DNA of 27,659 bases from a virus. The notes below the pieces were generated by a model, which did not search any database, had not been told where the DNA came from, and saw nothing but the letters and a program-made list of their open reading frames with translations. The translations under genes and the position numbers were made by a program. The stretch's first letter is position 1; the number at the start of each line of letters is the position of its first letter. The DNA lies in the IMG/VR virus record IMGVR_UViG_3300022912_000403, positions 1 to 27,659 of that record; one strand, 5' to 3'. Below are positions 1-24,056 of the stretch, piece after piece.

Positions 1-48
1 AATGAAGAACTTAATAAAATATTAGATAGAGAATTTACGGAATTTTAA
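1..48 (+). CDS. 3' end of an upstream gene (partial)
   Basis: Frame 1 is open from the window edge to a TAA at 46-48 and encodes 15 residues ending in REFTEF. The stop overlaps the ATG of the giant gene in a TAATG arrangement, which is typical of translationally coupled phage genes and supports a real gene end. Too little is present to assign a function. Confidence 0.55.
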   Translation, partial: NEELNKILDREFTEF

Positions 49-9000: not shown

Positions 9001-10091
9001 ACACACCATTGGATTCAGAGATAAATTGGTCTAATGAATTTGGTATTGGTCCATATCAAGCAACAGGTTCGTATATTTCAGCATCTTCGTATTATATGCC
9101 ATTGGATTCAGAGATAAATTGGTCTAATGAATTTGGTATTAGTCCATATCAAGCAACGGGTTCATATATTTCAGCATCTTCTGAATATACACCATTAGAC
9201 TCAGATATAAATTATAGTAATCCATTTAAGGTTAATTTTCATACAAAAGAAACAGGGTCATATATTTCCGCATCAGCTGATTATGTTCCACTTGATTCAA
9301 GTTTAAATTATAGTAATCCATTTAAGGTTAATTATTTAACTCAAGAAACGAGTTCATTTATTTCCGCATCTTCTGATTATGTTCCATTAGAAAGTAATAT
9401 GCAGTATGCAGATACATATAGAGTTAATTCTCATACACAAGAAAGTGGATCATTTATTTCAGCTTCTGCATTATATGATGATATAAATATGATATCAAAT
9501 ATTAATTTGAGGAATCCATATTTACTTGATGGTAGAACTCAAATTACTGGATCTGGTGTATCGATGTCTGCAGATTTTAGTTCATTAAGTGCACCAAGTG
9601 AAACTCTTGGAGAAAATGCAAGAGGAACGGGTTCATTTGTATTAAAACATATTTTAGAAAGACCATCATTATATGGTATAGGTGATAGAGATACAAGTGG
9701 TTGGTATGGAAATGATTATTATAATTCAACTATACAGGAAGGAAGTCAAAAATTAATTTTTGAAGAAGTGGTAATGCCACGAGTTGAAACTAATGTAACT
9801 TCAGAGTTTAATCGTGAGATTCAATATTATTATTCATCTTCATTGAGTTCATCTTTGGGAATTTATTATTCATCAAGTTTTGTAACTACCGATTTAGACA
9901 ATCGTTGGGATGATACACTTGGAACGGAAAGACTTTTTTATCTTGGGTGTAGTCAAACTGATACAACAACTGTATCTGATAAGGGTGGAAGATATAGAGA
10001 TAAAACACCAGCCGTAGATGTAACAGTTACTTCACCGACAAGGTTAGTAACTACAGATTCACCATCTACACCATTGGATGTTGCTAGATAA
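48..10091 (+). CDS. Giant repeat-rich virion structural protein, probably tail/baseplate adhesin
   Basis: This 3347-residue protein fills over a third of the window. Visible architecture: a small domain seen twice (about residues 185-247 and 453-505), flanking a carbohydrate-binding-like beta domain (about 268-443, opening NLATNGHFNSG and ending PTSYMM, the style of CBM4/9 modules). Three copies of a roughly 70-residue unit follow (524-726), then three long Trp-rich units (730-1923). A helical stretch leads to a segment resembling phage tail/baseplate proteins (about 2352-2505, with the KGTARAIKG motif, reminiscent of P2 gpI-type KGTxxAI motifs). A LamG/concanavalin-like domain (about 2548-2751) and five to six 31-32-residue tandem repeats (2987-3175) complete it. 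No signal peptide is visible. The ATG overlaps the previous stop; no strong ribosome binding site is seen, so coupling is likely. A tail or baseplate role with glycan or receptor binding is inference from domains and from adjacent structural paralogues. Confidence 0.8.
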   Translation: MPKKQLTIDPKTGKLSRIKDTELPLVQLANSLNEGDPVAPFGSLTTDIIEVCLYDTDDNYLSSATIRIPLPESLDIGQYVRSMGYERGTYKIVFNFLREIGGSSIPKFVKKDKTIWDGEFTLDTDGKLYAGSVSKPVIDPDTQEKIELTAENDKFWLQEISPSRTEIRLRPNPAINDADANERFRLLGYTCLCQADVNGEAPLTFDDTGKSATVNWVLNGGQEVSLNELMKGGTLIIRDAFVIDYEESPETISTYTPVVETITAAASDNLATNGHFNSGNGVVQETDSNPKNEVVEFPNPGHSKWCLLTSPAGGEGGTKDVEYQMDFEVIPGETYVLSCWIYHDEDWNGRTDAHFYSRAFTDNVNGITISGVGTVLETKVVDGKTWERQYSRIIIPPEGTGKLSWYLGAGAEKPGTPVLSGNRYYTDIQCEPGSSTSLPTSYMMEERPEELEIPSTGLIKFIDDNTVSATLNGDEEGLVELMQSGDNRESGVLTIKNAIVTDETFDVKTDRTIVDGIPTDNSDASIIREKGSETEFNKSPFHGDGQTDSTDLNITLQANDTYRLIKVNSNGNEEEVGRYDLPVDVTVVDEIPVEPSMAPEIVIEEKKLHKSSFHGDNQSDSNELIVTIHSNDIYRLYRIDSDGIEELIGEYGIPEEVKEIDDLELINPDGSEIRENKNEGEWGATASPYHSTTDNKIILQVDTKYTLYRLRPNGEEIQIGTHDNWKESKEWSLDSLVDGDKLRILTENTGGKNGFIGKIYYNNQIYKTGDPKSKYQSDDDQEISITTDGIWDARAFTLRRRAKWWKFGFGDDIYDWFDTTAIFGSNIFLPTKTYGIPEKVKQWKGKVHKDLEDCKVIWTGPNYRELRWEWEPSVNVHERIWKRQDPALNVRSVHPVAWSSGLSVHSWSSSGAYAFWKTGWLGHQAKWVNGEGHGGGPAMKFIDQNSQFQNPNHPDYNGKYFDIDGNRVPDHTINYAYGNRWGYGSADHPISLEHRGQWIDQRPPFSFESQGIKIGDKLKISWWQKSDTVGKGARVYIRYWKKEAPIDGVFWDSATTTVGNTLRFIPVSKEGEWEKAEYTFEVQEDFDLSRMGSSIYGDRNIGPLFRIDGYFGPEGILWVSEPKITLVSDVDNPEVTNTITLDDFEPTDKLKLYTTNLGTEPRGFLSKVTYKGKEYRTGDQDKEHYYDDFAGSTLTVDLPGTWQITDAENKNWTDLGEVTDDKIDPELKDSKWIWSSEDTNEVVWQWLPNNNIVDGIWNYPNPVTYEDAVGITGWSDGFNPFHWGGDSSKQSELFWHSGWVGHHAKWVRDEGQFGTCIKFVDMNSQFVSPNHQDYDGLNGTGNNSGAQATLEHRDMFVYADLPNKLASQGIQEGSFIKISWWQKTNVQGKGAQVGLRHFNKDGQISWGPDNEFRRMIPCTSVDEWEQVNYTGVVDEDWDLTKTDKIYVKGHFGPEGMLWVENVTIEIISGIATDPDQTNIYTVHNFNSDDKLKLYTTNLGTLPNGFISKISYRGTEYKTGDPGVDFYTDPITDETITINLPGVWKIPGSNWKTLGKSEEVNPDLVVDPTLSNAVWVGNTDEVEGQQLWEWNPLGDIGNYIWNYPNPTLRTDAVWPENWSNGFQNFNFNDEGQRFWHSGWVGHHAKFVPEEGRDGETAMKFIDQNSGFDSPNHQYYVGDYKTGNSSDADQTLKHREMMLSQKLPHTMAAQGVEVGDQLTISWRQKSDTVGKGARVGIRHYNTTVSDVDPLENTLTGTLQMRSNDDTIYQLVSYNNSELIGKAFPNMTVAVSNPSRGISGTLTLQEINLSTSVLTFTSGIQGFQRGDTLDFTLDTSQHDVPVGPFGVETTNAYSNIENTQKDREWLRYIPTTTGDWQDVSYSVIVDGDFDLTQPSWLVVYGHKGPEGMLWVENVEIKITVDNQQISVVPVFGDFVAEIDGWIDRNTLTVKGGYNSVAESLGHISDNSDNIRSYSTFDEFSVEYTSSVYSAEPILGSLRGEIANVNDDTITLVNSFNEIATEAGHDLENYPLEALQSDDGLLAFNKWFIQYPTDSTENLGKLLKLGPNKYDVITNFKIDTQTYPEYPHSLVYKLYEPLPDDIVNHDFVTVVREMIPPIEETCTLIPFVDEWVSDVVLRTPEFQSVTSPIGTGQTEFKNYTELATSNSDIKNKLEDEVISGSLSADINVDFNLFENFIHFSSAEQRVKNFKYKLDLIEQYTDRSASLAGAGSGSTGTIGVVAAPGSGSYITISGSQSLNPPFTPVSGSLTQIQSWETKRRLMINSFDKFEKYMFNQSSSYSSQSIGLFHDNAWPKRGGSGSYAYPYILTRTSQSISTTWYDNQIISASAYDRANKNRLKTHLPTFVQDDSQNDVFLTFVDMIGHHFDDIWVFIKSMTDVYDRRDKLSEGVAKDLLKPVAQSFGWEVQDGKDLISMQRYILGMESTGSEEPWVYSGTSDRDISREIWSRIINNMPYFLKTKGTARAIKGLISCYGIPSTILRVMEYGGPKLSGQTPEFLTTRKFTKSLNFFGASNNTYVNTNTWLPVVSGSGSTSRLPDTVEFRFKAATGSNQVLVRRGDDWAIRLLDNGSIDNYGRVSFVLSGSEGYIETSSSAFPVFDGEFYSVMLTRASASGKFLSDDTPSQDVVYSLYTKKYDAGRSKIFLESTATLAVSGSAGATSESYNASWTGSGGQITIGGPQENTYFGESFSGSMMEFRLWTTPLTESAFDNHVASPMAFDGNTPSASYMDMVTRYSFDDDKDLSVAANQWFQDASADQSFTSSATPTNYAGGTSDYHFSAVVDETKMKIPNLGPSMKSSNKLRIENDTLLDLAQSANPILKFKESITIPAYDNAPVDSNKLGIFFSPTAVIDEDIISSLPNIDFDQYIGDPRDQYKEQYTGLTTARNLYWQKYSGPNNFWDYLRLLKYYDSSLYRQIRDLIPARANATVGILIEPTILERDKVIIGKKPTFETAHFKSDIDLYYISESARYTPLDSEINWSNEFGIGPYQATGSYISASSYYMPLDSEINWSNEFGISPYQATGSYISASSEYTPLDSDINYSNPFKVNFHTKETGSYISASADYVPLDSSLNYSNPFKVNYLTQETSSFISASSDYVPLESNMQYADTYRVNSHTQESGSFISASALYDDINMISNINLRNPYLLDGRTQITGSGVSMSADFSSLSAPSETLGENARGTGSFVLKHILERPSLYGIGDRDTSGWYGNDYYNSTIQEGSQKLIFEEVVMPRVETNVTSEFNREIQYYYSSSLSSSLGIYYSSSFVTTDLDNRWDDTLGTERLFYLGCSQTDTTTVSDKGGRYRDKTPAVDVTVTSPTRLVTTDSPSTPLDVAR
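1618..2225 (+). repeat. Three diverged ~70-residue repeats in the giant protein
   Basis: Three successive units share the pattern SPFHGD..S..(D/E)L.(I/V)T(L/I)..ND.YRL....NG.EE.(I/V)G.Y, starting near 1618, 1848 and 2054. The third is the most diverged (SPYHST, YTLYRLRPNGEE). They are clear at protein level and weak at DNA level, so the duplication is old. Confidence 0.7.
2236..5815 (+). repeat. Three large Trp-rich repeats in the giant protein
   Basis: Units begin near 2236, 3454 and 4476 and end with the shared motif FGPEG(M/I)LWV or KGPEGMLWV near 3400, 4420 and 5770. Each has a DKL(K/R)(L/I)(Y/L)T opening, a GF(L/I)(S/G)K(V/I)(T/Y/S)Y stretch, an FW(H/K)(S/T)GW(V/L)GH(H/Q)AK(W/F) box, a (D/N)(Q/M)NS(Q/G)F..PNH box, and ISW(W/R)QK(S/T). 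Unit 3 carries about 115 extra residues near its end (about 5275-5615). The folds look like beta-sandwich ligand-binding modules, but I cannot assign a family. Confidence 0.8.
9006..9570 (+). repeat. Tandem 31-32-residue repeats near the giant protein's C-terminus
   Basis: Five clear copies plus one degenerate copy begin with PLDS.(I/L)N(W/Y)SN and end with GS(Y/F)ISAS. The first two copies are 93 bases apart and nearly identical in DNA (start points 9006 and 9099), while copies 3-5 are 32 residues long and more diverged. The near-identity of copies 1 and 2 points to recent unequal recombination or slippage. The repeats probably form an elongated fibrous or beta-structured stalk. Confidence 0.8.
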
Positions 10092-10203: not shown

Positions 10204-11157
10204 ATGGGATATTTAAATAATTCAAACAGAACATTAGACGCTATATTGACAAAAAAAGGTCGTGAAATATTGTCAAGTGGTGGAGATTTTAATGTTACTA
10301 AATTTGCATTGGGTGATGATGAGATTGATTACTCGCTATGGGATACTACTCATACAAAGGGTACAGATTTCTATGGTGCAGTAATTGATAATTTACCAGC
10401 ACTTGAACCTTTCAACGATCCTTCCGAGATTATGAAATATAAACTTGTATCACGGACAGATGGAGTTCAAGCAATGGCAAAGTTAATAGAAAATCCGGGC
10501 ACACAAACATCTCTTAACAACCTAAAGTGGTACGCCGATGATGTATCAGGAGATGGTGGAACAAGAGTCCGAGTTGGAAACACGGCCTATTATCTTGGTT
10601 TGGGAACAACATTTGGTGTTGGTCATGTTAATAATAGTGATCTTACAATAGATTATGTTGGTGGGGATGATTCAATTTTCGAAGAAGGATATAGAAGTGA
10701 AATGTTTACACTGACAGTATTGGATACTACTGTGGCAGTATTGGCACCACTATACAAAGCCCTTCCAAATAAAGAGTACCCAGTTATTTCATTGGGTGGT
10801 GGTGGTAATCGAAAAAAGAGAAAACCCGGTCGTGGTGCACCCTCAGGTGGTATGCAAGATTCTGATAGAGACAAATGGTTTCCATTTGTAAAGTCAGTAC
10901 AACATCTTTCACAAACAATAAAAGGATGTTTAGTTTCAGATGGTGGTACATTCACCCACAGTAGAGGTAATAACTTTGCACCTACATTAAATGGGGCAAT
11001 AGCATTATATCCAAAGAAAATTTCATCTGCATCTTCACCGGCAAAAACTTCTATAATTGTCGCCGGAGAAAGTTCAGGAGCAGTTGTAGAGTTTAATGTT
11101 ACTATTACACATAGAGCTACAGGTATAAGACCAGCTGACGACGCAACATCTGCATAA
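10204..11157 (+). CDS. Virion-associated protein, paralogue 1 of the 'MG(Y/F)(L/I)N' family
   Basis: This 317-residue protein of unknown function is the longest member of a four-gene tandem family. The conserved N-terminal domain (about residues 1-85) carries LTKKGREIL, TKFALGDDEIDY.LWD and a (G/A)VI(D/E)N.P..E motif. A glycine/basic-rich linker (about 200-220) precedes a small beta-rich C-terminal domain with the motif TSIIV.GESSGAVVEF, also found in the gene at 11196 and as a separate gene at 13494. There is no signal peptide or membrane segment. The start is fixed by AGGAGA at 10191-10196. A structural role is inferred from its position between the giant tail-type gene and further structural paralogues. 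Confidence 0.75.
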   Translation: MGYLNNSNRTLDAILTKKGREILSSGGDFNVTKFALGDDEIDYSLWDTTHTKGTDFYGAVIDNLPALEPFNDPSEIMKYKLVSRTDGVQAMAKLIENPGTQTSLNNLKWYADDVSGDGGTRVRVGNTAYYLGLGTTFGVGHVNNSDLTIDYVGGDDSIFEEGYRSEMFTLTVLDTTVAVLAPLYKALPNKEYPVISLGGGGNRKKRKPGRGAPSGGMQDSDRDKWFPFVKSVQHLSQTIKGCLVSDGGTFTHSRGNNFAPTLNGAIALYPKKISSASSPAKTSIIVAGESSGAVVEFNVTITHRATGIRPADDATSA

Positions 11158-11181
11158 TAAATAAAAGTAATTTTTATTTAT
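11157..11181. repeat. AT-only inverted repeat
   Basis: ATAAATAAAA (11157-11166) and TTTTATTTAT (11172-11181) form a perfect 10-base-pair inverted repeat around GTAAT, starting at the last base of the preceding stop codon. Its right arm overlaps the TATTTATA octamer, so hairpin and octamer may be one signal. It lacks the GC pairs of a normal intrinsic terminator. Confidence 0.45.
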
Positions 11182-11182
11182 A
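11175..11182 (+). promoter_or_regulatory. TATTTATA octamer, copy 2
   Basis: This exact copy ends only 4 bases before the AGGAG ribosome binding site of the gene at 11196. If it were a -10 element, transcription would begin inside the ribosome binding site. This copy therefore argues for an mRNA-level or 3'-end role, or for an unusual promoter geometry. Confidence 0.4.
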
Positions 11183-11195
11183 AAAAGGAGTCCTT

Positions 11196-11885
11196 ATGGG
11201 ATTTATAAATAACACTTCGTATATACTGAATGCAGTATTAACAAAGAAAGGTAGAGAATATCTTGCAAAAAGTGATGGTAAGTTTAATATTACTAAATTT
11301 GCTTTAGCGGACGATGAGATAGATTATACCTTATGGGATCATGCACATCCAAAAGGATCAGATTATTATGGGGCCGTTTTAGAGTCCACTCCTATGTTAG
11401 AACCTTGTGTGGATCCAGAAGTTGTGATGAAGTATAAATTAATTACACAACCAGTTGGAACGCGGGCATTACCGTATATAGAAAATATTACACAGGCTAT
11501 AAACGGTAATAAGTTAAAGTCTATAGTGAATGATGATGGATGGACACTTACAGATATGACATTAAATCCTACAACCGTTGGGGCAAACAATGTTTATTCA
11601 GCAGAAAAATATAGTTATTTGGTGTTGAATAATAATGTGATTGATATTAGAATTGGAGCAATAAATCCAACGACTGCTCCTACATTCGATAGTTTACCAG
11701 AAACTGGAGCAGTTTATGGTGAAGAAAGTGGTAGAATGAGTAAAAAAGTTGTAAATAAAATTACAACAATTAGGGCAAGGCAGATGACATCTGATAGAGA
11801 AACATCAATTATAATAACCGGTCAAATGTCAGGAGCAGTTTATGTTCTTCGGGTTCAAGTTGGATATGAAGATCAAAGGACTTAA
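11196..11885 (+). CDS. Virion-associated protein, paralogue 2 of the 'MG(Y/F)(L/I)N' family
   Basis: This 229-residue protein shares the N-terminal domain of its neighbour at 10204 (LTKKGREYL, TKFALADDEIDYTLWD, GAVLE..P.LEP) and the C-terminal beta motif ETSIIITGQMSGAVYVL. It lacks the glycine/basic linker, so it shows the family in its simplest two-domain form. The start follows AAGGAG at 11185-11190. No catalytic motif, signal peptide or membrane helix is visible. Function is unknown; it is probably a virion component by context. Confidence 0.75.
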   Translation: MGFINNTSYILNAVLTKKGREYLAKSDGKFNITKFALADDEIDYTLWDHAHPKGSDYYGAVLESTPMLEPCVDPEVVMKYKLITQPVGTRALPYIENITQAINGNKLKSIVNDDGWTLTDMTLNPTTVGANNVYSAEKYSYLVLNNNVIDIRIGAINPTTAPTFDSLPETGAVYGEESGRMSKKVVNKITTIRARQMTSDRETSIIITGQMSGAVYVLRVQVGYEDQRT

Positions 11886-11887
11886 TA

Positions 11888-12391
11888 ATGGGATTTATAA
11901 ATAAAGATACTTTAACTGTTGATGCGATACTCACTAAAAAAGGTATAGATTATTTAAGGACTGCAGTATTTGGTCAAAATCAAAATGCTGAACACGTAAT
12001 TACAAAATTTGCATTATCTGATGATGAAATAGATTATGGTTTGTGGGATACTACACCAAGTGGTTCAAATTTTGTAAAACCATATGGACAGGTGATTGAT
12101 AACCAACCTTTAACAGAACCAATGGTTACTAATAATGAAAATATGAGGTATTTTTTGTTCAAGGATGGTATAGTTTTTGATACGGCACCAGAACCGGCGG
12201 ATGTAACACCACCAATTACAAGTTTTAATATGTTTCGAGGCAGAAAAAAAGAATTTAGTTTATTTAGAGGTGGTAGTCCAAAAAGTTTATATCAAGGACG
12301 GACAACTGAAAAACAAAAACAAGAACAAAAGCAAACAAGCAAACGAGATACAGGTGAACGACAACAAGGACGCCGTAGAGATGGGAAATAA
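11888..12391 (+). CDS. Virion-associated protein, paralogue 3 with basic/Gln-rich tail
   Basis: This 167-residue protein has the family N-terminal domain (LTKKGIDYL, TKFALSDDEIDYGLWD, a few extra residues before TKFAL) but not the C-terminal beta domain. Instead, residues from about 125 on are very rich in Lys, Arg and Gln and end GRRRDGK, so they are probably disordered and able to bind nucleic acid or acidic surfaces. The ATG sits 2 bases after the previous stop, with AAAGGA at 11876-11881 inside the end of the previous gene as its likely ribosome binding site. The missing C-terminal domain suggests domain loss or replacement. Confidence 0.7.
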   Translation: MGFINKDTLTVDAILTKKGIDYLRTAVFGQNQNAEHVITKFALSDDEIDYGLWDTTPSGSNFVKPYGQVIDNQPLTEPMVTNNENMRYFLFKDGIVFDTAPEPADVTPPITSFNMFRGRKKEFSLFRGGSPKSLYQGRTTEKQKQEQKQTSKRDTGERQQGRRRDGK

Positions 12392-12393
12392 AT

Positions 12394-13203
12394 ATGGGAT
12401 ATTTAGATAAAACAACTATGTCTGTAACTGCACATTTTACTAAAAGGGGACGAGAGATTTTAGCAAACGCACTTTCGGGGGTTACTGATGATTCTTATGT
12501 GATTACACAATTTGCACTTGGTGATGATGAAATCGATTATGGTTTATGGGATGAAACACAGGCATCTAATTTGGAGGGTAGAATTATAGAAAATATGCCA
12601 GTACTTGAATCATTTGTGAATCAAAAAGAAATTATGAATTCATTTATAATAGACCCCCCAGAAATACCTTTTGGATCTAAAATTTCAAATGTTTTAGATC
12701 AGATGATATTGGAGAGTAGAAATGAAATTATTGATATAATTCCATCAACAGAAAATCATGGTGAAACAGAAGAATATGAATTTTTTCTTGAACATGACAA
12801 TTTATTTGAGATGTATGATCCATTTACTGCTCCAATAACAAATTTTACTATGGGTATCGCAAAAGGTGATGTACCAATGACAGATTTTATTATGAGTGTT
12901 GCAGCTCCACCAGAACCTCCACCAACCGCTGATTTTACTGAAATGCACCATCCTTCGGGACTTGCACCTTTAAACGTAGAGTTTACTGATACATCAATAG
13001 GTGATAATTTAACATATCTATGGAATTTTGGTGATGGACAGACATCTAATGAACAGAATCCAAATAATGTATATACAAATAGTGGAGAGTATACGGTTAC
13101 TTTAGTAGTTACTAATAATGTTGGAACTCACACTAAAACCGGTTTGATCACGGCGGTTCAAGAGTCAAGTGGTGGTGGTGAAGATGATGAACCAGTATTA
13201 TAA
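12394..13203 (+). CDS. Virion-associated protein, paralogue 4 with C-terminal PKD domain
   Basis: This 269-residue protein joins the family N-terminal domain (FTKRGREIL, TQFALGDDEIDYGLWD) to a PKD domain at about residues 180-260, recognised by YLWNFGDGQTS, the NP....Y spacing and the GEYTVTLVVTN strand. PKD domains are Ig-like folds common on surface and virion proteins, where they space or bind. A proline-rich linker (APPEPPPTADF) separates the two parts. The ATG lies 2 bases after the previous stop. A surface-exposed virion part that contacts polymers or receptors is the likely role; this is inference. Confidence 0.75.
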   Translation: MGYLDKTTMSVTAHFTKRGREILANALSGVTDDSYVITQFALGDDEIDYGLWDETQASNLEGRIIENMPVLESFVNQKEIMNSFIIDPPEIPFGSKISNVLDQMILESRNEIIDIIPSTENHGETEEYEFFLEHDNLFEMYDPFTAPITNFTMGIAKGDVPMTDFIMSVAAPPEPPPTADFTEMHHPSGLAPLNVEFTDTSIGDNLTYLWNFGDGQTSNEQNPNNVYTNSGEYTVTLVVTNNVGTHTKTGLITAVQESSGGGEDDEPVL

Positions 13204-17186: not shown

Positions 17187-17534
17187 ATGGACAACCAGGC
17201 ACAAGGTCTTGTCGAGGGATTGATAGGACAATATGGTTGGTTATTTTTAGCAGGAGTGGGGACACTCATTTTTCAAAATACCATAAGAGAAGCAGTAGAT
17301 GGGTTTATGATCTTTTTAGGTAATGATTATAACGAAGATGACGTTGTAGAAGTCGATGGGGAACCCGGTCGTATAGTACGAGTCAGTATGTGGAAAACCG
17401 TATTTTTTATCTATCACATAGTGGGTGGTAAAATAGTCGGTGGTTCTAAATTAGTCGTAGCAAATTCTAAATTAAAAGACCTAAAAATCGAAAAACCGTT
17501 AGCAAATCTTGATTTATCCAAGTATGAAAAATAA
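17187..17534 (+). CDS. Minimal MscS-like membrane protein (pore helix plus beta domain)
   Basis: These 115 residues resemble the core of the small-conductance mechanosensitive channel MscS. A hydrophobic helix (about 14-44, ending QNTIREAVDGFMIFLG) matches TM3, which lines the pore and is normally followed by a 'P(F/Y)..GD.V' turn. Here the turn reads NDYNEDDVVEVDG, then the beta-domain pattern GEPGRIVRVSMWKTVFF and the terminal VANSKL, equal to the MscS 'IPNSKL' motif. TM1, TM2 and the C-terminal cage domain of the roughly 286-residue E. coli protein are missing. The start follows ATAGGAG. A membrane-gating, host-channel-interfering or lysis-related role is possible; which one cannot be read from sequence. 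Confidence 0.7.
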   Translation: MDNQAQGLVEGLIGQYGWLFLAGVGTLIFQNTIREAVDGFMIFLGNDYNEDDVVEVDGEPGRIVRVSMWKTVFFIYHIVGGKIVGGSKLVVANSKLKDLKIEKPLANLDLSKYEK

Positions 17535-17544
17535 ACAAACATGA

Positions 17545-17552
17545 TATTTATA
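17545..17552 (+). promoter_or_regulatory. TATTTATA octamer, copy 5
   Basis: This exact copy lies 11 bases after the MscS-like gene's stop and 36 bases before the ATG at 17589. A small hairpin follows it directly. Confidence 0.4.
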
Positions 17553-17553
17553 A

Positions 17554-17572
17554 TAGTAGAGTAACGCTACTA
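17554..17572 (+). other. Small leader hairpin
   Basis: TAGTAG (17554-17559) and CTACTA (17567-17572) can pair across a 7-base loop. It sits between the octamer and the GGGAG ribosome binding site of the beta-barrel gene. There is no T-run, so it is not a standard terminator; it could be a 5' mRNA stabiliser or chance. Confidence 0.3.
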
Positions 17573-17588
17573 ACATGGGAGAAAACAG

Positions 17589-18875
17589 ATGTTAAAGAAA
17601 ATTATATTGGGTTTATTATTGACCTCATCTTTGTTTGCGGAAACAGAAATTTGGAAGTTTTTCAAATACTCAACTGCTTATGCAAGTTTTAGTTTAAACG
17701 CACCAAGATATCAAGATGATAAATTTGCCATCGTTGGTGGATTATCTACGGGCGAATTAGTAGTAGAGAGAACTGAAGGTGAATTGGAACCTGACTTTCA
17801 AAAGTCATTTGGTATTAGAAAAATTGGTAGATTTAACTATGAACCTAAACGTGGAGTTAAGTCCGCCGGTAAAGGTGGTACTTGGTACGAGGGTTCTGAG
17901 GAAAACTATAACGAAAGTGCGACATTTGGACCTGTCAAGGGTTATGAGTATTTAATCAAATGGTCAGAAGGTCGTCAATGGGGTGAAGAATATATCAATC
18001 AAGAGTATTGGTTACGATATACTGGTGATTGGTTTATGGCTAAGATTGGTTGGACAGAATTAGGATTGGAAGATATTAATTATGGACAAGGTGATTTAAG
18101 ATTTAAATGGACACCTGGAATATTAAATGATAAATTCCATATCAGTATCGGTGCTAAACACAGACAACATCCTGTATATGGATTTGATGCTATGGTATTG
18201 GATACTACGTGGTATAGAGGTTCGTGGTGGGATTTCGCCGAAGATGCTTTTGGTGTAGATGACAACCGATGGGTAGATGCCAGTATGATTGATGAAGATG
18301 GTAATTTTCTTACAAGTGAATTAATGGAGTATATAAACGGTGAATGGGTGCCGATTGAAGGAGCAGGACCATTTTGGAATGAAGGTGGGGAATATTGGGG
18401 TCATGATTGGTTATGGAGAGATGCCGAGGGTAATGTATTTGCCTATACGGATAGAGAGTTTTTCGTATATCACTTTCCAGGTATGTTAGAAGATTATATT
18501 TCAGGTGTTAAAAGAGATATTGGATTTCAAAAAGAAACATCATTAGTTTTAGGAATAGATGCTTATCATTATTCAGATAGTTGGTGGGTTCATATTTGGG
18601 GTAATTATTTACCACTTCATTATGGTCATGATAAATATTCTTATCATAATGCTGCGGGATACCAACAACATTTAGAAGATGGTAAAGAGGCTCATGAATT
18701 TGAATTTATTGAACCAGGCATTGTAGCTTGGAACGATTATGACTTTGGTGTAATATTTGGAGTTAAACTACAAGATAACTTGGGTGTGTTTGCTGAAGGT
18801 AGGTATTTATTCTATTGGGAACGACCAGCTTATGATTTAAAATTTGGACTTAATTACCAATTTATAGGATTCTAA
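17589..18875 (+). CDS. Exported outer-membrane beta-barrel-like protein
   Basis: This 428-residue protein starts with a clean signal peptide (KK, hydrophobic core, cleavage likely after SLFA at residue 17). The mature part is rich in Trp, Tyr and Gly with alternating strand-like stretches. It ends in two strong amphipathic strands, FAEGRYLFYW and LKFGLNYQFIGF, with a terminal phenylalanine as used for recognition by the BAM assembly machinery. A long acidic, aromatic loop region (about 210-300) may be surface exposed. GGGAG precedes the ATG. No family could be named. An outer-membrane protein encoded by a phage could block receptors, exclude other phages or alter permeability; these roles are inference. 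Confidence 0.65.
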   Translation: MLKKIILGLLLTSSLFAETEIWKFFKYSTAYASFSLNAPRYQDDKFAIVGGLSTGELVVERTEGELEPDFQKSFGIRKIGRFNYEPKRGVKSAGKGGTWYEGSEENYNESATFGPVKGYEYLIKWSEGRQWGEEYINQEYWLRYTGDWFMAKIGWTELGLEDINYGQGDLRFKWTPGILNDKFHISIGAKHRQHPVYGFDAMVLDTTWYRGSWWDFAEDAFGVDDNRWVDASMIDEDGNFLTSELMEYINGEWVPIEGAGPFWNEGGEYWGHDWLWRDAEGNVFAYTDREFFVYHFPGMLEDYISGVKRDIGFQKETSLVLGIDAYHYSDSWWVHIWGNYLPLHYGHDKYSYHNAAGYQQHLEDGKEAHEFEFIEPGIVAWNDYDFGVIFGVKLQDNLGVFAEGRYLFYWERPAYDLKFGLNYQFIGF

Positions 18876-18876
18876 A

Positions 18877-19470
18877 ATGAACGGTGATATTAAAATAGGC
18901 AAGTTACTCTGTGATGAAGATGTAATTACAAAGCGACAATTAAATCAGGCTTTACAGGCTCAGATTAAAGGAGATAAGAAATCTCTTGGAGAGATACTTG
19001 TAGATAAAGGTTTCTGCACTTTAGATGATATAACAGAAGTCATAATGAACTCTAGCGATGAAAATGGTCACGAAGTCCACCATGAAGCAATTGCTGAAAA
19101 GATAGAACCAAACCAGCCAATTGAATTAAGTGAAGATAAAGTAATGGATACTAAATTCACATTATCAGTTCAAACTATGGTGGGTGCTGGTATGGGATTA
19201 GCTTCTTTGATAGGAATGTGGTATACACTACAGGGTGAGATACAAGAGGCAAAAGAACTACCAAGTTTAGAAAGTTTATATGCTGCAGAATATCCATCAA
19301 GACCAGAGGGTTATAACTGGCCTCGTTCTTACGAACAATACAAAGATCAAGTAGGTTCACTTCAAGAAGATATGGACACAGTATACGAAACGATTGAAGA
19401 GCTAGAAGATTTAGTTAAGGAACTATCCAAAGAAATCCGTTCACTTGAAAAATCTAAAAGAGATAAATAG
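18877..19470 (+). CDS. GspE-N/MshEN-like domain with membrane helix and coiled coil
   Basis: Residues 5-57 match the N-terminal domain of type II secretion/type IV pilus ATPases: IGKLLCDEDVITKRQLNQAL, then SLGEILVDKGF.TLDDI. In some ATPases (MshEN) this fold binds cyclic di-GMP; here the usual glycine after 'L...' in the first half is Asp, so binding is uncertain. A transmembrane helix (about 96-118, ending GMWYTLQGEI) and a charged coiled coil (about 157-193) follow. There is no ATPase domain. The total is 197 residues. The ATG is 1 base after the beta-barrel gene's stop, so the two are probably co-translated. It may dock on the host secretion or pilus platform, which the nearby prepilin genes make plausible. 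Confidence 0.6.
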   Translation: MNGDIKIGKLLCDEDVITKRQLNQALQAQIKGDKKSLGEILVDKGFCTLDDITEVIMNSSDENGHEVHHEAIAEKIEPNQPIELSEDKVMDTKFTLSVQTMVGAGMGLASLIGMWYTLQGEIQEAKELPSLESLYAAEYPSRPEGYNWPRSYEQYKDQVGSLQEDMDTVYETIEELEDLVKELSKEIRSLEKSKRDK

Positions 19471-19479
19471 GAGTTTATT

Positions 19480-19854
19480 ATGAGATATTTAATTGGATTA
19501 ATATTTTTCTTATCTACAATAACTGCCCAGGTTACTGATAAGAATTTTAAAGATAAAGCTGGAAATGGTTTTGTGGTTGTAAAATTTACTTCTGAGTGGC
19601 AGGAGAAAGATTTAGATGAAGGTTTATTTAAAGGTGTTAAAGGACACGAAGATGCTATTATAATAGAAGCTAAATCATCTGATGTTAAAAAGATTTGTAA
19701 GAAATTAAGAATTAGAAATTACCCATCTATAGCATTATTCTTTGATGGGAGTAAAAAAGAAGTTTGGAAAGCCGACATGGATGGGGAAATAGATATTGAA
19801 GTGGGTGATATTAATTCTGCAATAGATGATGTCTTAGCAGAAGATGTATTTTAG
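19480..19854 (+). CDS. Exported thioredoxin-fold protein without the CXXC site
   Basis: These 124 residues begin with a signal peptide (hydrophobic 4-14, cleavage near TAQ at 17). The thioredoxin pattern follows: VVVKFTSEW at 32-40, the strand AIIIEAK, the helix KKICKKLRIRNYPS with the cis-proline at 82, and ALFFDGSK. Where W-C-x-x-C would stand the sequence is W-Q-E-K-D, so both redox cysteines are missing and disulfide exchange is not expected. It probably acts as a binding or chaperone-like module in the periplasm. ATAGGAG sits before the ATG, 9 bases after the previous stop. Confidence 0.65.
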   Translation: MRYLIGLIFFLSTITAQVTDKNFKDKAGNGFVVVKFTSEWQEKDLDEGLFKGVKGHEDAIIIEAKSSDVKKICKKLRIRNYPSIALFFDGSKKEVWKADMDGEIDIEVGDINSAIDDVLAEDVF

Positions 19855-19857
19855 TGT

Positions 19858-20508
19858 ATGAACGTTGCAATCGTAGCTGGTCATCTGGCCTTTGGGTTAA
19901 TAGCCTTTTCGTTTTTAGTAAAGGATATTTTTTGGTTAAGAATAGTATCAATATTAGCTAGTTTATTTTCAGTATTTTATAATTGGGTAATACCCGTAGA
20001 ACCAATGTGGATTCCAATCGGATGGAATTTTGTATTTGTGGCATTGAATTTATATCACATATCAGTTATCATATATGAAAAACGTCCTGTTCATATGTCA
20101 CCTAAACATAAAGAACTATATGAGACAATGTTTAAAAATATGACACCAGTTGAATTTTTGAAGATAACAAAGCTAGCAGATTGGATACATTTCAAATCTG
20201 GAGCAGTAATAACACAAAAAGGACACGCAGTATCTACTTTAAATTTAATATATAATGGAACTATTGATGTATCGGTAGATGATAAAAAAGTAGCAGAACT
20301 TAAAGATGGTCAGTTTATTGGTGAGATGTCATTTCTTACAGAGAAACCAGCAACGGCTACTTGTGTGGTTAAACACGATACGGAATGTTTGGTATGGAAA
20401 CAAGAACAATTTAAAGAATTATTAACAAGAAATCCAAGTTTATATTTTACGATTCAATCTTTATTGAGTACTCAAGTTTCAAGTGCATTAGTAAGTAGTA
20501 ATACGTAA
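19858..20508 (+). CDS. Popeye-like protein: three membrane helices plus cyclic-nucleotide-binding fold
   Basis: This 216-residue protein has three hydrophobic helices (about 4-21, 27-44 and 52-73) followed by a cyclic-nucleotide-binding-type beta roll (about 95-205). The order matches the Popeye (POPDC) family. The phosphate-binding cassette reads GEMSFLTEKPATATCVV at 155-171; the canonical arginine that holds the cyclic phosphate is Ala here, so binding would be weak, altered or lost, much as the canonical cassette is altered in Popeye proteins. The ATG is 3 bases after the previous stop without a clear ribosome binding site. It may sense a nucleotide second messenger at the host inner membrane, or act only as a scaffold. 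Confidence 0.65.
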   Translation: MNVAIVAGHLAFGLIAFSFLVKDIFWLRIVSILASLFSVFYNWVIPVEPMWIPIGWNFVFVALNLYHISVIIYEKRPVHMSPKHKELYETMFKNMTPVEFLKITKLADWIHFKSGAVITQKGHAVSTLNLIYNGTIDVSVDDKKVAELKDGQFIGEMSFLTEKPATATCVVKHDTECLVWKQEQFKELLTRNPSLYFTIQSLLSTQVSSALVSSNT

Positions 20509-20519
20509 TGTTACAACTT

Positions 20520-20534
20520 GTATCGCAACGATAC
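20520..20534. repeat. Short GC-containing inverted repeat
   Basis: GTATCG (20520-20525) and CGATAC (20529-20534) flank CAA, just after the Popeye-like gene. No T-run follows. It could be an operator or a weak mRNA 3'-end hairpin. It is in the window's longest gene-free gap (20509-20704), where I see no convincing sigma70 promoter. Confidence 0.35.
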
Positions 20535-20613
20535 TATCAAAATGTTACAGTATAAAATGCCACTCAAATAAGTAAAATATTACTCTCCCATAGATTCAAA
20601 TATATAACAACTT

Positions 20614-20635
20614 AAAAATAAATTAAATTATTTTT
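20614..20635. repeat. AT-only inverted repeat upstream of the pilin genes
   Basis: AAAAATAA (20614-20621) and TTATTTTT (20628-20635) can pair as 8 base pairs around ATTAAA. It resembles the inverted repeat at 11157-11181 in composition. It may act as a weak transcript end in either direction, or be chance in AT-rich DNA. Confidence 0.3.
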
Positions 20636-20704
20636 CTAAAATAGGGTACTTTGGTATAGTTTTTGTATCATATAGGTAATTAACTAACTAATAGGAGAAC
20701 TGAA

Positions 20705-21343
20705 ATGTTCAAAAACTTAATTAAAAACTTAAAGAGTAACAAAGGTGCTTCACTTGCCGAATTTGCCGTTGTTACTGCAATGATGGGCACAATGGCAACG
20801 GTTGCTGCACCTAAATTTTCTGGTGTTGGTGCTGGTGCTGAAAAACAAAAAACAAGTTCTAACATGGATATGATTGCTCAAGCTGCTAGTAACTTTTACA
20901 ACATGACTGCAACTGAAGAGAAAAAAGGTCGTTTCCCTGGACAAGATAAATATACTAATCCCGTTGGAACATACGGTGCCATTGGTTCTTCTTTAGCTGA
21001 GATTGAAGCCGCTAAAGACGCAATTGAAGCTGACATTGAATTATTTGATAGCTATACAAGTGCTAAAGGTGCTGGATTTGTATCTGTATTTGGACTTGCA
21101 CATGAGGATGCTTTTATCTTACCAGCAAACGTTGGTAGTCATAGTATAGCAGCTGATGATGATGGTACTTATGTGGGTTCAATTGAATGGATGCAATCTT
21201 TTGGTGGTGAAGCTATTGCATCTCCTTTTCAGGATGGACATTACATTTATGCTGTTGTTCCTGGAATGGGTGCTGAAGCCCCAACACTTTATATTGCAGA
21301 CTTGGTAAATCCCGCTGCTTATAACACTTCATATAAACCGTAA
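20705..21343 (+). CDS. Type IV prepilin-like protein, likely major pilin
   Basis: This 212-residue protein has a short basic leader ending SNKG, a prepilin-peptidase-type site G/A at residue 14, Glu at mature position 5 (ASLAEF) and a hydrophobic N-terminal helix running to APKF. The mature domain is Ala/Gly-rich with no cysteine pair, and is longer than its three neighbours. It has its own 196-base leader region and a strong ATAGGAGA ribosome binding site, and uses Gly GGT, Ala GCT and similar codons more heavily than nearby genes, which fits high expression. In hosts, such proteins are processed at the inner membrane and polymerised by the type IV pilus or type II secretion machinery. No peptidase or assembly ATPase gene is in view, so host machinery would be needed. 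Confidence 0.8.
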   Translation: MFKNLIKNLKSNKGASLAEFAVVTAMMGTMATVAAPKFSGVGAGAEKQKTSSNMDMIAQAASNFYNMTATEEKKGRFPGQDKYTNPVGTYGAIGSSLAEIEAAKDAIEADIELFDSYTSAKGAGFVSVFGLAHEDAFILPANVGSHSIAADDDGTYVGSIEWMQSFGGEAIASPFQDGHYIYAVVPGMGAEAPTLYIADLVNPAAYNTSYKP

Positions 21344-21368
21344 GAACAATTATTCATAGGAGAATAAA

Positions 21369-21815
21369 ATGAAAACAAACACACAAAACAACAAAGGATT
21401 CACGCTCATTGAATTGATTATGGTTACAATCATACTCGGTATTCTTGCGGCTGTAGCAATCCCCAGATATACAGCTACTGTTGAAAGAGCTGAACAAGCG
21501 GCTGAAAATGCTGTGATTTCGAGCATTAAATCTGGTTTAGAAACATATGCAACTGAACAATTATTAGATAATGGTCGTAGAAGTTGGCCTGTAAATCCAT
21601 TTTTAGCATTGGACACATCACCATCTGGTTATTCAACCGACATAACAGATGCTGACTCTGATTCTGAATGGACATTCAATACAACATCTAATTCTATAAC
21701 TCATATGCGTGGGGATAATTCACTTCACCATTGGGATTATGTTCAAGGTGTAACAACCTCTGGTCTTGAAGCCGTTGGAACACTCGGTGGTAGAGATGCA
21801 GGTTCAAGTATTTAG
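21369..21815 (+). CDS. Type IV prepilin/pseudopilin-like protein
   Basis: These 148 residues show the textbook class: leader NNKG, then mature FTLIELIMVTIILGILAAV with Glu5, and a helix continuing into an Ala/Glu-rich stretch. The globular part shares SWP.NP..AL, EW.FN and (T)H.RGDN with the prepilin at 22356, so these two are duplicates. ATAGGAGA lies before the ATG, 25 bases after the preceding pilin gene. A rho-independent terminator follows at 21835-21864, closing a two-pilin transcript. Confidence 0.85.
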   Translation: MKTNTQNNKGFTLIELIMVTIILGILAAVAIPRYTATVERAEQAAENAVISSIKSGLETYATEQLLDNGRRSWPVNPFLALDTSPSGYSTDITDADSDSEWTFNTTSNSITHMRGDNSLHHWDYVQGVTTSGLEAVGTLGGRDAGSSI

Positions 21816-21834
21816 TAAATCTTAAAACATCAAT

Positions 21835-21864
21835 AAAGGCTTCATTCCGTGGAGCCTTTTTTTT
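21835..21864 (+). terminator. Rho-independent terminator
   Basis: AAAGGCTTC (21835-21843) pairs with GGAGCCTTT (21851-21859), 9 base pairs with one T-G wobble, around a 7-base loop, followed by a run of T to 21864. It separates the first two pilin genes from the next two and is the only classical terminator seen in the window. Confidence 0.85.
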
Positions 21865-21879
21865 AAATTTGGACATACC

Positions 21880-22356
21880 ATGAACCTAAAATTGATTAAA
21901 CGAAATAATGGGTTTACTTTAAACGAACTGGTTGTTGCGATTTCAATAATGGGTGTTTTAGCTAGTGTGGCTGTTCCTCGTTTAAGTAGCGTTCAAAGTC
22001 AAACTCAGAAAGATATTAACATTGCAAATATCAATGTAATACGAGAAACATTCTTTCATTATTACTATCGACAACATATGGTAGGAAATCCACACTTTCC
22101 ACCCAGTTCAACTGATTCAGATCGTTTAATGGATGATGAATGGACTAACTCTCCTATTGATTCAACCATTTCTAATATAGCACCAAAAGATTTATTTAGT
22201 ACAGGAAGAGTTCCTAAAAACTCCCAAGACACTCCATTTTATTATGAAACATTAAATGAAATTGATAGTGATGGAACATTGAAACACACAATCATATTAA
22301 AGGATATTGACATTGATAGCCCATCTTATAACGAAACCTACAGGTACTCTATTTAA
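21880..22356 (+). CDS. Type IV prepilin/pseudopilin-like protein with Asn before Glu5
   Basis: This 158-residue protein has the leader KLIKRNNG and the mature start FTLNELVVAISIMGVLASV with Glu5. The Asn at position 4 is unusual in an otherwise hydrophobic segment. The globular domain (PHFPPSS, DEW, TPFYYETL) differs from the other pilins and looks like a minor pseudopilin. It begins just after the terminator with only a weak ribosome binding site, and its stop overlaps the next gene's ATG (TAATG). Lower expression as a minor tip or initiator subunit is a reasonable inference. Confidence 0.8.
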   Translation: MNLKLIKRNNGFTLNELVVAISIMGVLASVAVPRLSSVQSQTQKDINIANINVIRETFFHYYYRQHMVGNPHFPPSSTDSDRLMDDEWTNSPIDSTISNIAPKDLFSTGRVPKNSQDTPFYYETLNEIDSDGTLKHTIILKDIDIDSPSYNETYRYSI

Positions 22357-22772
22357 TGAATAATCGTAGAGGATTTTCATTCATTGAATTGATTATGATC
22401 ATTATTATAATGGGAATACTATCAGCCGTAGCTATACCTAAGTATATGAGTATTGTAGCGAGTGCGGAAATACGGGCTGAGAAATCATTCGTAAATGATA
22501 TATGGGAAGGATTAGAAGATGTTGCTGAAGATAGATTTTTAGATACTGGAGTTGAAAGCTGGCCTTACAATCCATTATCCGCAGTTGGTAGAACTCGTAA
22601 TATTATAATAAACTTAACAATTGGTTATCCTATTGAAAGGAATGAATGGAGATTTAATTTAAGTGACCCCAACTCTCCTATTTTATTACATAAGAGAAAC
22701 AATTATGAAGTATGGGGTTATACTTATGATTCGCTAACATTTACTTTATCAGAAGAACCGGAGTTATTTTAA
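22356..22772 (+). CDS. Type IV prepilin/pseudopilin-like protein, duplicate of the gene at 21369
   Basis: These 138 residues have the very short leader NNRRG, then FSFIELIMIIIIMGILSAV with Glu5. The globular domain repeats the landmarks of the gene at 21369: FLD.G..SWP.NP, EWRFN and a W.Y near the end. TAATG overlaps occur at both ends (with 21880 and with 22772), so three genes are translationally coupled. No calcium-binding or disulfide signature typical of some pseudopilins is evident. Confidence 0.8.
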   Translation: MNNRRGFSFIELIMIIIIMGILSAVAIPKYMSIVASAEIRAEKSFVNDIWEGLEDVAEDRFLDTGVESWPYNPLSAVGRTRNIIINLTIGYPIERNEWRFNLSDPNSPILLHKRNNYEVWGYTYDSLTFTLSEEPELF

Positions 22773-23341
22773 TGAAATATTTAACAATAATATTATTTTT
22801 AAGCATAACATACTCACAAGAAAAATACAATGGACAATTCAGGGGTCACCCTTGTGATGATACAGAGTATAGAGATGATTATGGTTCGCCTAATTGGAAA
22901 AATTATGGTGGGTGGTTAAGTGAATGTGATTCATTAGCATCTGCATATTCCGATTCTACATTTGCGATTGTTCTTGAAAAACGACATAGTAAAAAATTAG
23001 AAGAAGAGAGAAAACGACAAGAAGAAATAGACAACATAGATACTGATATGGATGCCATGTGGGAAAATACTATCTGGAATGAGATAGTAGAAATAGGGGA
23101 AACCATAGAATATGAAGTAGAGAACATAACTACCGTGGCTGGAGTGCGTGGAGCGGAAGCAGAAGATGAAGCCTTAGCACTTTTGTATTATAGAAAATCT
23201 ATGAAAGGATTATCTAAATTAGAATTACAAAGGGCATTAGGTAAGTTGATTAGCAGACGACAGGAAATGCCCGATGATACTGATACAAAAAAGATAGATA
23301 GTTTTATTTACCAATTAAAAATAAAATTAAAAAAGGCTTGA
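22772..23341 (+). CDS. Exported helical protein coupled to the pilin genes
   Basis: This 189-residue protein starts with a short signal peptide (hydrophobic 4-13, cleavage near TYS at 15). The mature N-terminus is Tyr/Gly/Asp-rich and holds the only two cysteines (residues 28 and 52), possibly a disulfide. From about residue 65 it is strongly charged and helical (KKLEEERKRQEEID), with further helices to a Lys-rich end. It is unrecognised. The TAATG overlap with the pilin upstream suggests a shared function, for example a periplasmic partner of the pilins. Its TGA stop overlaps the -35 box of the next promoter. Confidence 0.65.
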   Translation: MKYLTIILFLSITYSQEKYNGQFRGHPCDDTEYRDDYGSPNWKNYGGWLSECDSLASAYSDSTFAIVLEKRHSKKLEEERKRQEEIDNIDTDMDAMWENTIWNEIVEIGETIEYEVENITTVAGVRGAEAEDEALALLYYRKSMKGLSKLELQRALGKLISRRQEMPDDTDTKKIDSFIYQLKIKLKKA

Positions 23342-23498: not shown

Positions 23499-24056
23499 AT
23501 GATTAAATTAAAAGATTTACTTTCAGAAAAAATTACATTACCTATTGAGATAGGCGATACTGTTTTGATGGGTAAATTTAAAAATAAAAAGGTTGTAGTT
23601 AAGACTATCGCCTGGAACGAAAAGGGTGATTTATTAATTAATGGTAAGTCTTCATTACGGATGAGAATACCACCAAAAAGTAATTTAAAATATGAAGTTA
23701 ATGAGCGAGTTGATTTTAATCAAATGGCTACAGAGATAGTTAAAAAAGCTGGACTAAACTCTAAAGTGATATTTAAAAACACAGGTAGTAATAAAGCTGA
23801 TTATAATGTTGATAATGATACGATTAATATAAAACCAACATCTAATTTAAAAGATTTTTTAGTAACTGTATTTCACGAAATAGACCACGCGAAAGATGCT
23901 AAAAAATATAGTAAAGAAAAATATAAAGAAAAATATGAACAAGAAATGAACAAAGCCGTTGAAAAGGGTTTAGACCCACATGATGGTAATTACTTTGAGA
24001 TTAAAGCTGAAAAGTATGGTCGTAAAATGGCGAAGGAATTTCTAAAGAAGAGATAA
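23499..24056 (+). CDS. HExxH zinc metallopeptidase-like protein
   Basis: This 185-residue protein has a zinc-protease motif HEIDH at 126-130 and a downstream helix YFEIKAEKYGRKMA (166-179) supplying a likely third ligand Glu (167 or 171), the layout of small gluzincin/ImmA-like peptidases. Residues 1-70 form a basic beta-rich part of unknown role after the opening MIKLKDLLSE. I prefer the ATG at 23499 over an in-frame GTG at 23487, because that GTG overlaps the GGAG ribosome binding site. There is no signal peptide, so it acts in the cytoplasm. Possible targets are a host regulator or a virion precursor; neither can be read from sequence. Confidence 0.7.
   Translation: MIKLKDLLSEKITLPIEIGDTVLMGKFKNKKVVVKTIAWNEKGDLLINGKSSLRMRIPPKSNLKYEVNERVDFNQMATEIVKKAGLNSKVIFKNTGSNKADYNVDNDTINIKPTSNLKDFLVTVFHEIDHAKDAKKYSKEKYKEKYEQEMNKAVEKGLDPHDGNYFEIKAEKYGRKMAKEFLKKR

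Follow-up and report, generated by a model that had tools for sequence, protein, structure and literature searches.

A conserved but composite block of envelope and prepilin genes in an uncultured marine tailed-phage group

Phages are known to interfere with type IV filaments: proteins that inhibit type IV pili (T4P) for superinfection exclusion are established in Pseudomonas phages, and the T4P-disabling Pf4 pVII, PilB inhibitors and Gp21 are single small inhibitors or regulators (PMC11436027). Here we describe a locus in which entire prepilin sets stand instead beside envelope proteins. It consists of ten genes (A to J, positions 17187-23341) within a 27,659-bp linear IMG/VR contig, IMGVR_UViG_3300022912_000403, the whole of which is referred to below as the window and which belongs to an uncultured group of marine tailed phages. 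Although composite, the block is real, and it is conserved. Its invariant core is a unit, B-(lipoprotein)-C-D, whose order is kept across strongly diverged phages, and the other parts, namely A, E and a prepilin cassette comprising F to J, are found apart from this unit in some phages. The features of the block are as follows.

17187-17534, plus strand: A, 115 aa, one transmembrane helix and a possible MscS-type beta-domain
17589-18875, plus strand: B, 428 aa, exported, predicted beta-barrel of the outer membrane, from an orphan family and central to the unit
18877-19470, plus strand: C, cytoplasmic MshEN/GSPII domain (residues 6-58), transmembrane helix (about 98-118) and periplasmic coiled coil
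19480-19854, plus strand: D, exported thioredoxin-fold protein without CxxC
19858-20508, plus strand: E, about three transmembrane helices and a cyclic-nucleotide-binding-like domain (POPDC architecture)
20509-20704, no strand: gap of 196 nucleotides (nt) before F, with a probable promoter of its own
20705-21343, plus strand: F, 212-aa prepilin, SNKG/ASLAEF...P22 (the slash marks the cleavage site)
21369-21815, plus strand: G, GspG/PilA-type prepilin, likely the major subunit
21835-21859, plus strand: terminator-like hairpin, 11-bp stem and T-run, between prepilin genes G and H
21880-22356, plus strand: H, prepilin
22356-22772, plus strand: I, prepilin, related to G (39%)
22772-23341, plus strand: J, exported helical protein whose invariant core lies around VAGVRGAEAEDEAL, last gene of the cassette

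With the type II secretion system (T2SS) and T4P, the block shares prepilins bearing N-methylation sites, one of them GspG-like, and the GSPII/MshEN domain of PilB, PilF and MshE, which occurs in C. In C, however, this domain is joined to a transmembrane helix and a coiled coil rather than to an ATPase, the predicted barrel of B is of the porin type and not a secretin, and the phages studied here yielded neither an ATPase nor a platform protein, prepilin peptidase or secretin. The NfrA/NfrB glycan system, the receptor of phage N4 (PMC8669472), likewise couples a barrel in the outer membrane with an MshEN protein in the inner membrane. The NCBIfam NfrB model is matched weakly by C, but C has neither a glycosyltransferase domain nor most of the residues that contact cyclic di-GMP (c-di-GMP), and a TPR domain is absent from B. 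A third comparison is with phage lysis cassettes (holin, endolysin, spanins): E and B-C-D adjoin holin-like and endolysin genes in many relatives, although there is no spanin homology. We know of no described lysis cassette with an outer-membrane barrel and a GSPII domain. PHROG 3433 'pilin' and other lone phage pilins have the prepilin N-terminus in common with the proteins described here, which differ in forming an ordered cassette of 2-4 prepilins with exported accessory proteins that is kept across the phage group. A preliminary description of the window, made from its sequence, knew of no described phage system with this set, and literature searches for phage-encoded pilin or TonB receptor modules likewise yielded nothing on it. 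The set is both conserved and widespread, and it is undescribed to our knowledge and in the literature searched.

The ten envelope genes claimed in that description are all present as open reading frames (ORFs) on the plus strand, closely packed between virion-like genes on one side and a zincin-RuvC-primase-SbcCD block on the other. The start of I overlaps H by 1 nt, as the start of J overlaps I. These are not chance ORFs, because their proteins are kept in relatives even though four-fold degenerate sites are scrambled, such sites being only about 0.42-0.55 identical in the genes compared and about 0.45-0.53 for B, A and E. Across diverged phages, the median identity is 0.86 for A, 0.75 for E, 0.74 for B, 0.66 for C, 0.55 for D and 0.54 for F; in the same phages it is 0.51 for the primase, 0.47 for s7 and 0.39 for s9, so that the 74% of B stands against 39-47% for the adjoining virion genes. 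Conservation of B, A and E above that of the degenerate sites therefore indicates strong purifying selection and no recent transfer. A chimera of phage and bacterial DNA, which had been named as a refuting condition, is excluded, as the joins recur in independent contigs. L003, from a different metagenome, carries s9-A-B-C, with A, B and C 100% identical to the window, and the separate contig L025 carries D to J at 99-100% identity, J excepted (78%). A relative encodes a phage terminase (PHROG 2), a second ground for rejecting a chimera.

ORFs were called and labelled in 123 loci, and gene order was compared in a set of 30 contigs, made non-redundant at 97% and each with at least 4 kb of sequence after B. 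In all 30, C lies less than 2 kb behind B, and D directly behind C; in almost every one of 23 pairs, C and D are 9-10 nt apart. A lipoprotein gene occupies the position between B and C in 22 contigs and abuts the C gene or shares a 1-nt overlap with it; its product is a 200-aa lipoprotein of the outer-membrane type, in which the Cys is followed by acidic residues. No copy of this gene was found between B and C or elsewhere in the window. Within 5 kb behind the unit, E, pilin F or a holin-like gene follows in 29 of the 30 contigs. Judged from their sequences, the products should occupy successive layers of the envelope: C in the inner membrane, reaching into the cytoplasm with its GSPII domain and into the periplasm with its coiled coil, D within the periplasm, and the lipoprotein and B in the outer membrane. 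The conservation of order across several phages that the preliminary description had named as support for a joint system is thus found in many relatives, for the core and for the pilin cassette alike. The block is, however, not one fixed system: only B-(lipoprotein)-C-D is invariant, the pilin cassette is optional (present in 9 of the 30 contigs) and can sit elsewhere, and E recurs in lysis cassettes.

Within this core, B is present in at least 132 IMG/VR contigs, those kept having about 68% identity or more. It possesses a signal peptide and, in a medium-confidence AlphaFold2 model built from 57 sequences (pLDDT 61, pTM 0.58, 12-14 strands), the closed barrel of amphipathic strands that characterizes outer-membrane barrels; an earlier model from 20 sequences was unusable (pLDDT 38). 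The top PDB matches listed for the model are outer-membrane proteins; nearly all are porins, channels or barrels of autotransporters, and TM-scores are low. Model and matches argue for the beta-barrel initially proposed. In profile searches of Pfam, PHROGs and NCBIfam, which were used to label the window proteins, neither B nor J found a match. Cultured or annotated phage records contained no significant match to B or C, and scanning GTDB genomes with a pattern yielded no cellular relatives of B. From a structure library a single viral entry was retrieved, A0A516LKJ4 (25% identity, E 1.5e-19), which is likely a distant homologue.

The domain of C is of the PilB/MshE GSPII type, as the preliminary label had it: NCBIfam NF053729 is matched at 46 bits (cut-off 38), all 19 members tested match, and a PDB profile search retrieves PilF (1.9e-8). 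Binding of c-di-GMP by such domains calls for Arg at position 1 and Gln at position 24 of both 24-residue motifs (PMC5013675, PMC12002112). Among 56 distinct C proteins, the Arg of motif I is replaced by Lys in 51, whereas its Gln is kept in all 56; the turn Gly of motif I has become Asp throughout; the Arg of motif II is Thr, Ser or Ala in all 56, and its Gln is lost in 52. C fails this residue test, with most ligand-contacting residues gone, and c-di-GMP sensing, which the NCBIfam designation 'c-di-GMP_motif' had brought to mind, is largely rejected on these grounds. Natural non-binders have precedent. The GSPII-A domain of Thermus PilF does not bind and shows similar residue loss, with a restored motif II Arg needed for binding (PMC12002112), and the GspE of Xcc is another (PMC5013675). 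The exported thioredoxin fold assigned to D is likewise borne out by PDB profile matches (best 2.8e-9), with Pfam just under cut-off, and none of 62 distinct D proteins has a CxxC active site.

E exceeds the family cut-offs for PF04831 (55.6 bits) and PF00027 (56.6 bits). Its phosphate-binding cassette reads GEMSFLTEKxATA in nearly all members, with Ala where cyclic AMP-binding domains carry Arg; an Arg of that type is not present in E. Phage-specific disarming of E was considered and rejected, because its cellular relatives equally lack this Arg. The Popeye-like identity of E stands as a POPDC and cyclic-nucleotide-binding protein, while its part as a sensor is weakened. Matches of E in PADLOC span only the cyclic-nucleotide-binding domain, and a role as a Pycsar or CBASS effector or decoy is unsupported. 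With most c-di-GMP residues missing from C, the phosphate-binding Arg from E and CxxC from D, sensor readings are weakened in general, and by their sequences the domains of C, D and E look like adaptors more than working sensors or enzymes. For A, which is 72-100% identical in relatives and whose position is sometimes elsewhere, the 'MscS-like core' remains a weak assignment: PF00924 is matched at 16.6 bits (cut-off 20.2), nine of nine members match weakly, and a PDB profile search with A gave no match.

The four prepilins recognized at the outset can be affirmed. F, G, H and I all carry the prepilin site, with G(-1), E(+5), a hydrophobic helix and P(+22), and Pfam N_methyl is above cut-off for G, H and I. 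F is identified by its prepilin site together with weak NCBIfam and PDB profile matches (geopilin, MshA), and its cleavage-site Gly, Glu and Pro are invariant in 20 relatives. The cassette was compared at 35 loci on 33 contigs. F comes first at every locus and is followed by 1-3 further prepilins in the order G, H, I, by an optional protein with a transmembrane helix and small domain, and then by J; in several relatives an exported TonB C-terminal protein comes next. At 24 of the 35 loci (about 23 of the 33 contigs), D, E, A or the lipoprotein gene lies no more than two genes upstream. The gap before F is mostly 110-270 nt, compared with usually less than 65 nt between genes of the cassette. 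This long and persistent gap suggests that the cassette is probably a transcription unit of its own, so that of the co-expression once proposed for the block the tight spacing is confirmed but not a single operon. The hairpin behind G could raise G above H, I and J and make it the most abundant subunit, an arrangement that is at most suggestive, since terminator-like hairpins are about as frequent in shuffled sequence (2.6) as in the region (3).

In 29 related records, no motor ATPase (PF00437), platform protein (PF00482), prepilin peptidase (PF01478) or secretin (PF00263) was found above the Pfam cut-off, and control genomes were positive in the same searches. As these records (up to 165 kb) are probably incomplete, the absence is strong rather than final. 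As the phages showed no assembly machine, working prepilins would need the host for their maturation and movement, in agreement with the dependence on host T2SS or T4P machinery suggested earlier.

Taken together, these data lead us to a tentative interpretation, in which the block may be a phage add-on by which, late in infection, the envelope of the host and its type IV filament machinery are refitted. B, the lipoprotein, C and D would assemble into a trans-envelope complex, and the GSPII domain of C, its ligand residues mostly lost, would dock as an adaptor on the host T4P or T2SS in the manner of GspE and PilB N-domains. The host prepilin peptidase would cut the phage prepilins, which the host motor would polymerise or which would cap the filament, and the host filament would thereby be replaced, blocked or redirected. 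The likeliest benefit would be that a surface filament used by competing phages is lost or changed, or that the envelope is controlled until lysis. Rewiring of the host T2SS or T4P, as first proposed, is partly supported, namely by the conserved order, by the placement of almost every product in the envelope and by the reliance of the pilins on host machinery, though not in the fixed form of one system. Whereas phages are known for disabling pili or altering single receptors, such a set would mean rebuilding the host envelope, beyond breaking it.

Several observations weigh against this refitting. In two thirds of the B-C-D phages, a pilin cassette is missing from the vicinity of the unit, and two contigs of 132 and 165 kb, among the largest, show no B-C-D; for both reasons the parts of the block are separable. 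B is exceptionally conserved, unlike exclusion proteins, which are often variable. The docking of C presupposes a host T4P or T2SS, which is itself presumed. Late expression of the region is suggested by gene position, and a search for late promoters with TATAAATA gave no excess. Finally, the holin and endolysin neighbourhood equally fits lysis or egress.

A more far-reaching possibility, which we regard as doubtful, is a hybrid phage-host trans-envelope machine, to which the phage would contribute a conduit through the outer membrane, adaptors in the periplasm and inner membrane, and the subunits of a pseudopilus, and the host only the motor, platform and peptidase. If true, this would be of a kind without earlier description.

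Also unlikely, in our judgement, is that the block serves lysis or egress, with B-(lipoprotein)-C-D disrupting or perforating the outer membrane in a spanin-like fashion, E timing the holin, and the pilins forming a separate add-on; C would be the inner-membrane coiled-coil partner and the lipoprotein the outer-membrane partner, roles suggested by topology. Holin-like genes, so labelled mostly from topology, do lie less than 5 kb behind the unit in 18 of the 30 contigs, and a GTA_holin_3TM-type protein, under its cut-off, is nearby. In G026, G039 and G041, E has a two-transmembrane-helix holin-like gene on one side and a GH108 endolysin on the other; in L034, L035 and L037 it immediately follows an SLT transglycosylase. 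This recurrence, which the preliminary description had not anticipated, points to lysis control more than to pili. The junction of the lipoprotein and C genes is as tight as noted above, and no spanin-like lipoprotein family other than the B-C lipoprotein was seen. That lipoprotein, however, is unlike short o-spanins in its length and is missing from the window, the conserved cytoplasmic GSPII domain of C has no known role in lysis, and the strong conservation of B and the presence of pilins would be left unexplained.

We consider it improbable that the block serves transport or nutrition, with B as a porin-like channel that, together with a surface lipoprotein, keeps substrates entering the infected cell. 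The phage group does encode TonB-related proteins, as follows.

L089:3599-6334 (G039:123599-126337), G026:2-2311 and G043:5769-8495: TonB-dependent receptor
G006:39348-39683 (minus strand), G043:76770-77069 and G023:1447-1782: exported protein with only the TonB C-terminal domain, near the pilin cassette or J

The receptor, full-length (CarboxypepD_reg and Plug, 912 aa) and located among replication genes, has relatives in at least 329 IMG/VR contigs, G026, G039 and G043 of this group among them; 80 were kept, at 74-99% identity. This receptor, the TonB_C protein that several relatives encode next to the pilin cassette, the acidic residues after the lipoprotein Cys and the strong conservation of B would all suit uptake, but the unit has no substrate-binding protein or inner-membrane transporter, and the GSPII domain, the dead thioredoxin fold and the pilins have no evident part in it. 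That the envelope genes have no joint function, having been gained independently and gathered in a permissive late region, would accord with the parts found apart from B-C-D in some phages, but is improbable given the invariant order of B-C-D across strongly diverged phages and a prepilin cassette that keeps its inner order, usually directly behind D, E or A.

Together with the TonB-dependent receptor, the set suggests envelope takeover as a main strategy of this phage group. The orphan barrel family, the GSPII adaptor mostly devoid of ligand residues and the ordered prepilin cassettes provide testable entry points. The relatives of E (Bacteriovoracaceae, Chloroherpetonaceae and others, 40-49%) are too distant to assign a host; Gln after the signal-peptide cleavage site and the CarboxypepD-TonB receptor hint at one from the FCB group.

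Outside the block, positions 48-10091 of the window are occupied by a single ORF of 3,347 aa, which matches nothing in Pfam at E 0.1. At 10204-13203 stand four virion-like paralogues in tandem with a common N-terminal region, MGxxN...LTKKGxExL...KFALxDDEIDYxLW, and one of them has an additional PKD domain. A short tag, M[IV]KLKxLLxE, opens the protein at 23499-24056 and unrelated proteins in many relatives (e.g., G026_081-083 and G043_098-102) and is possibly a targeting or packaging peptide.

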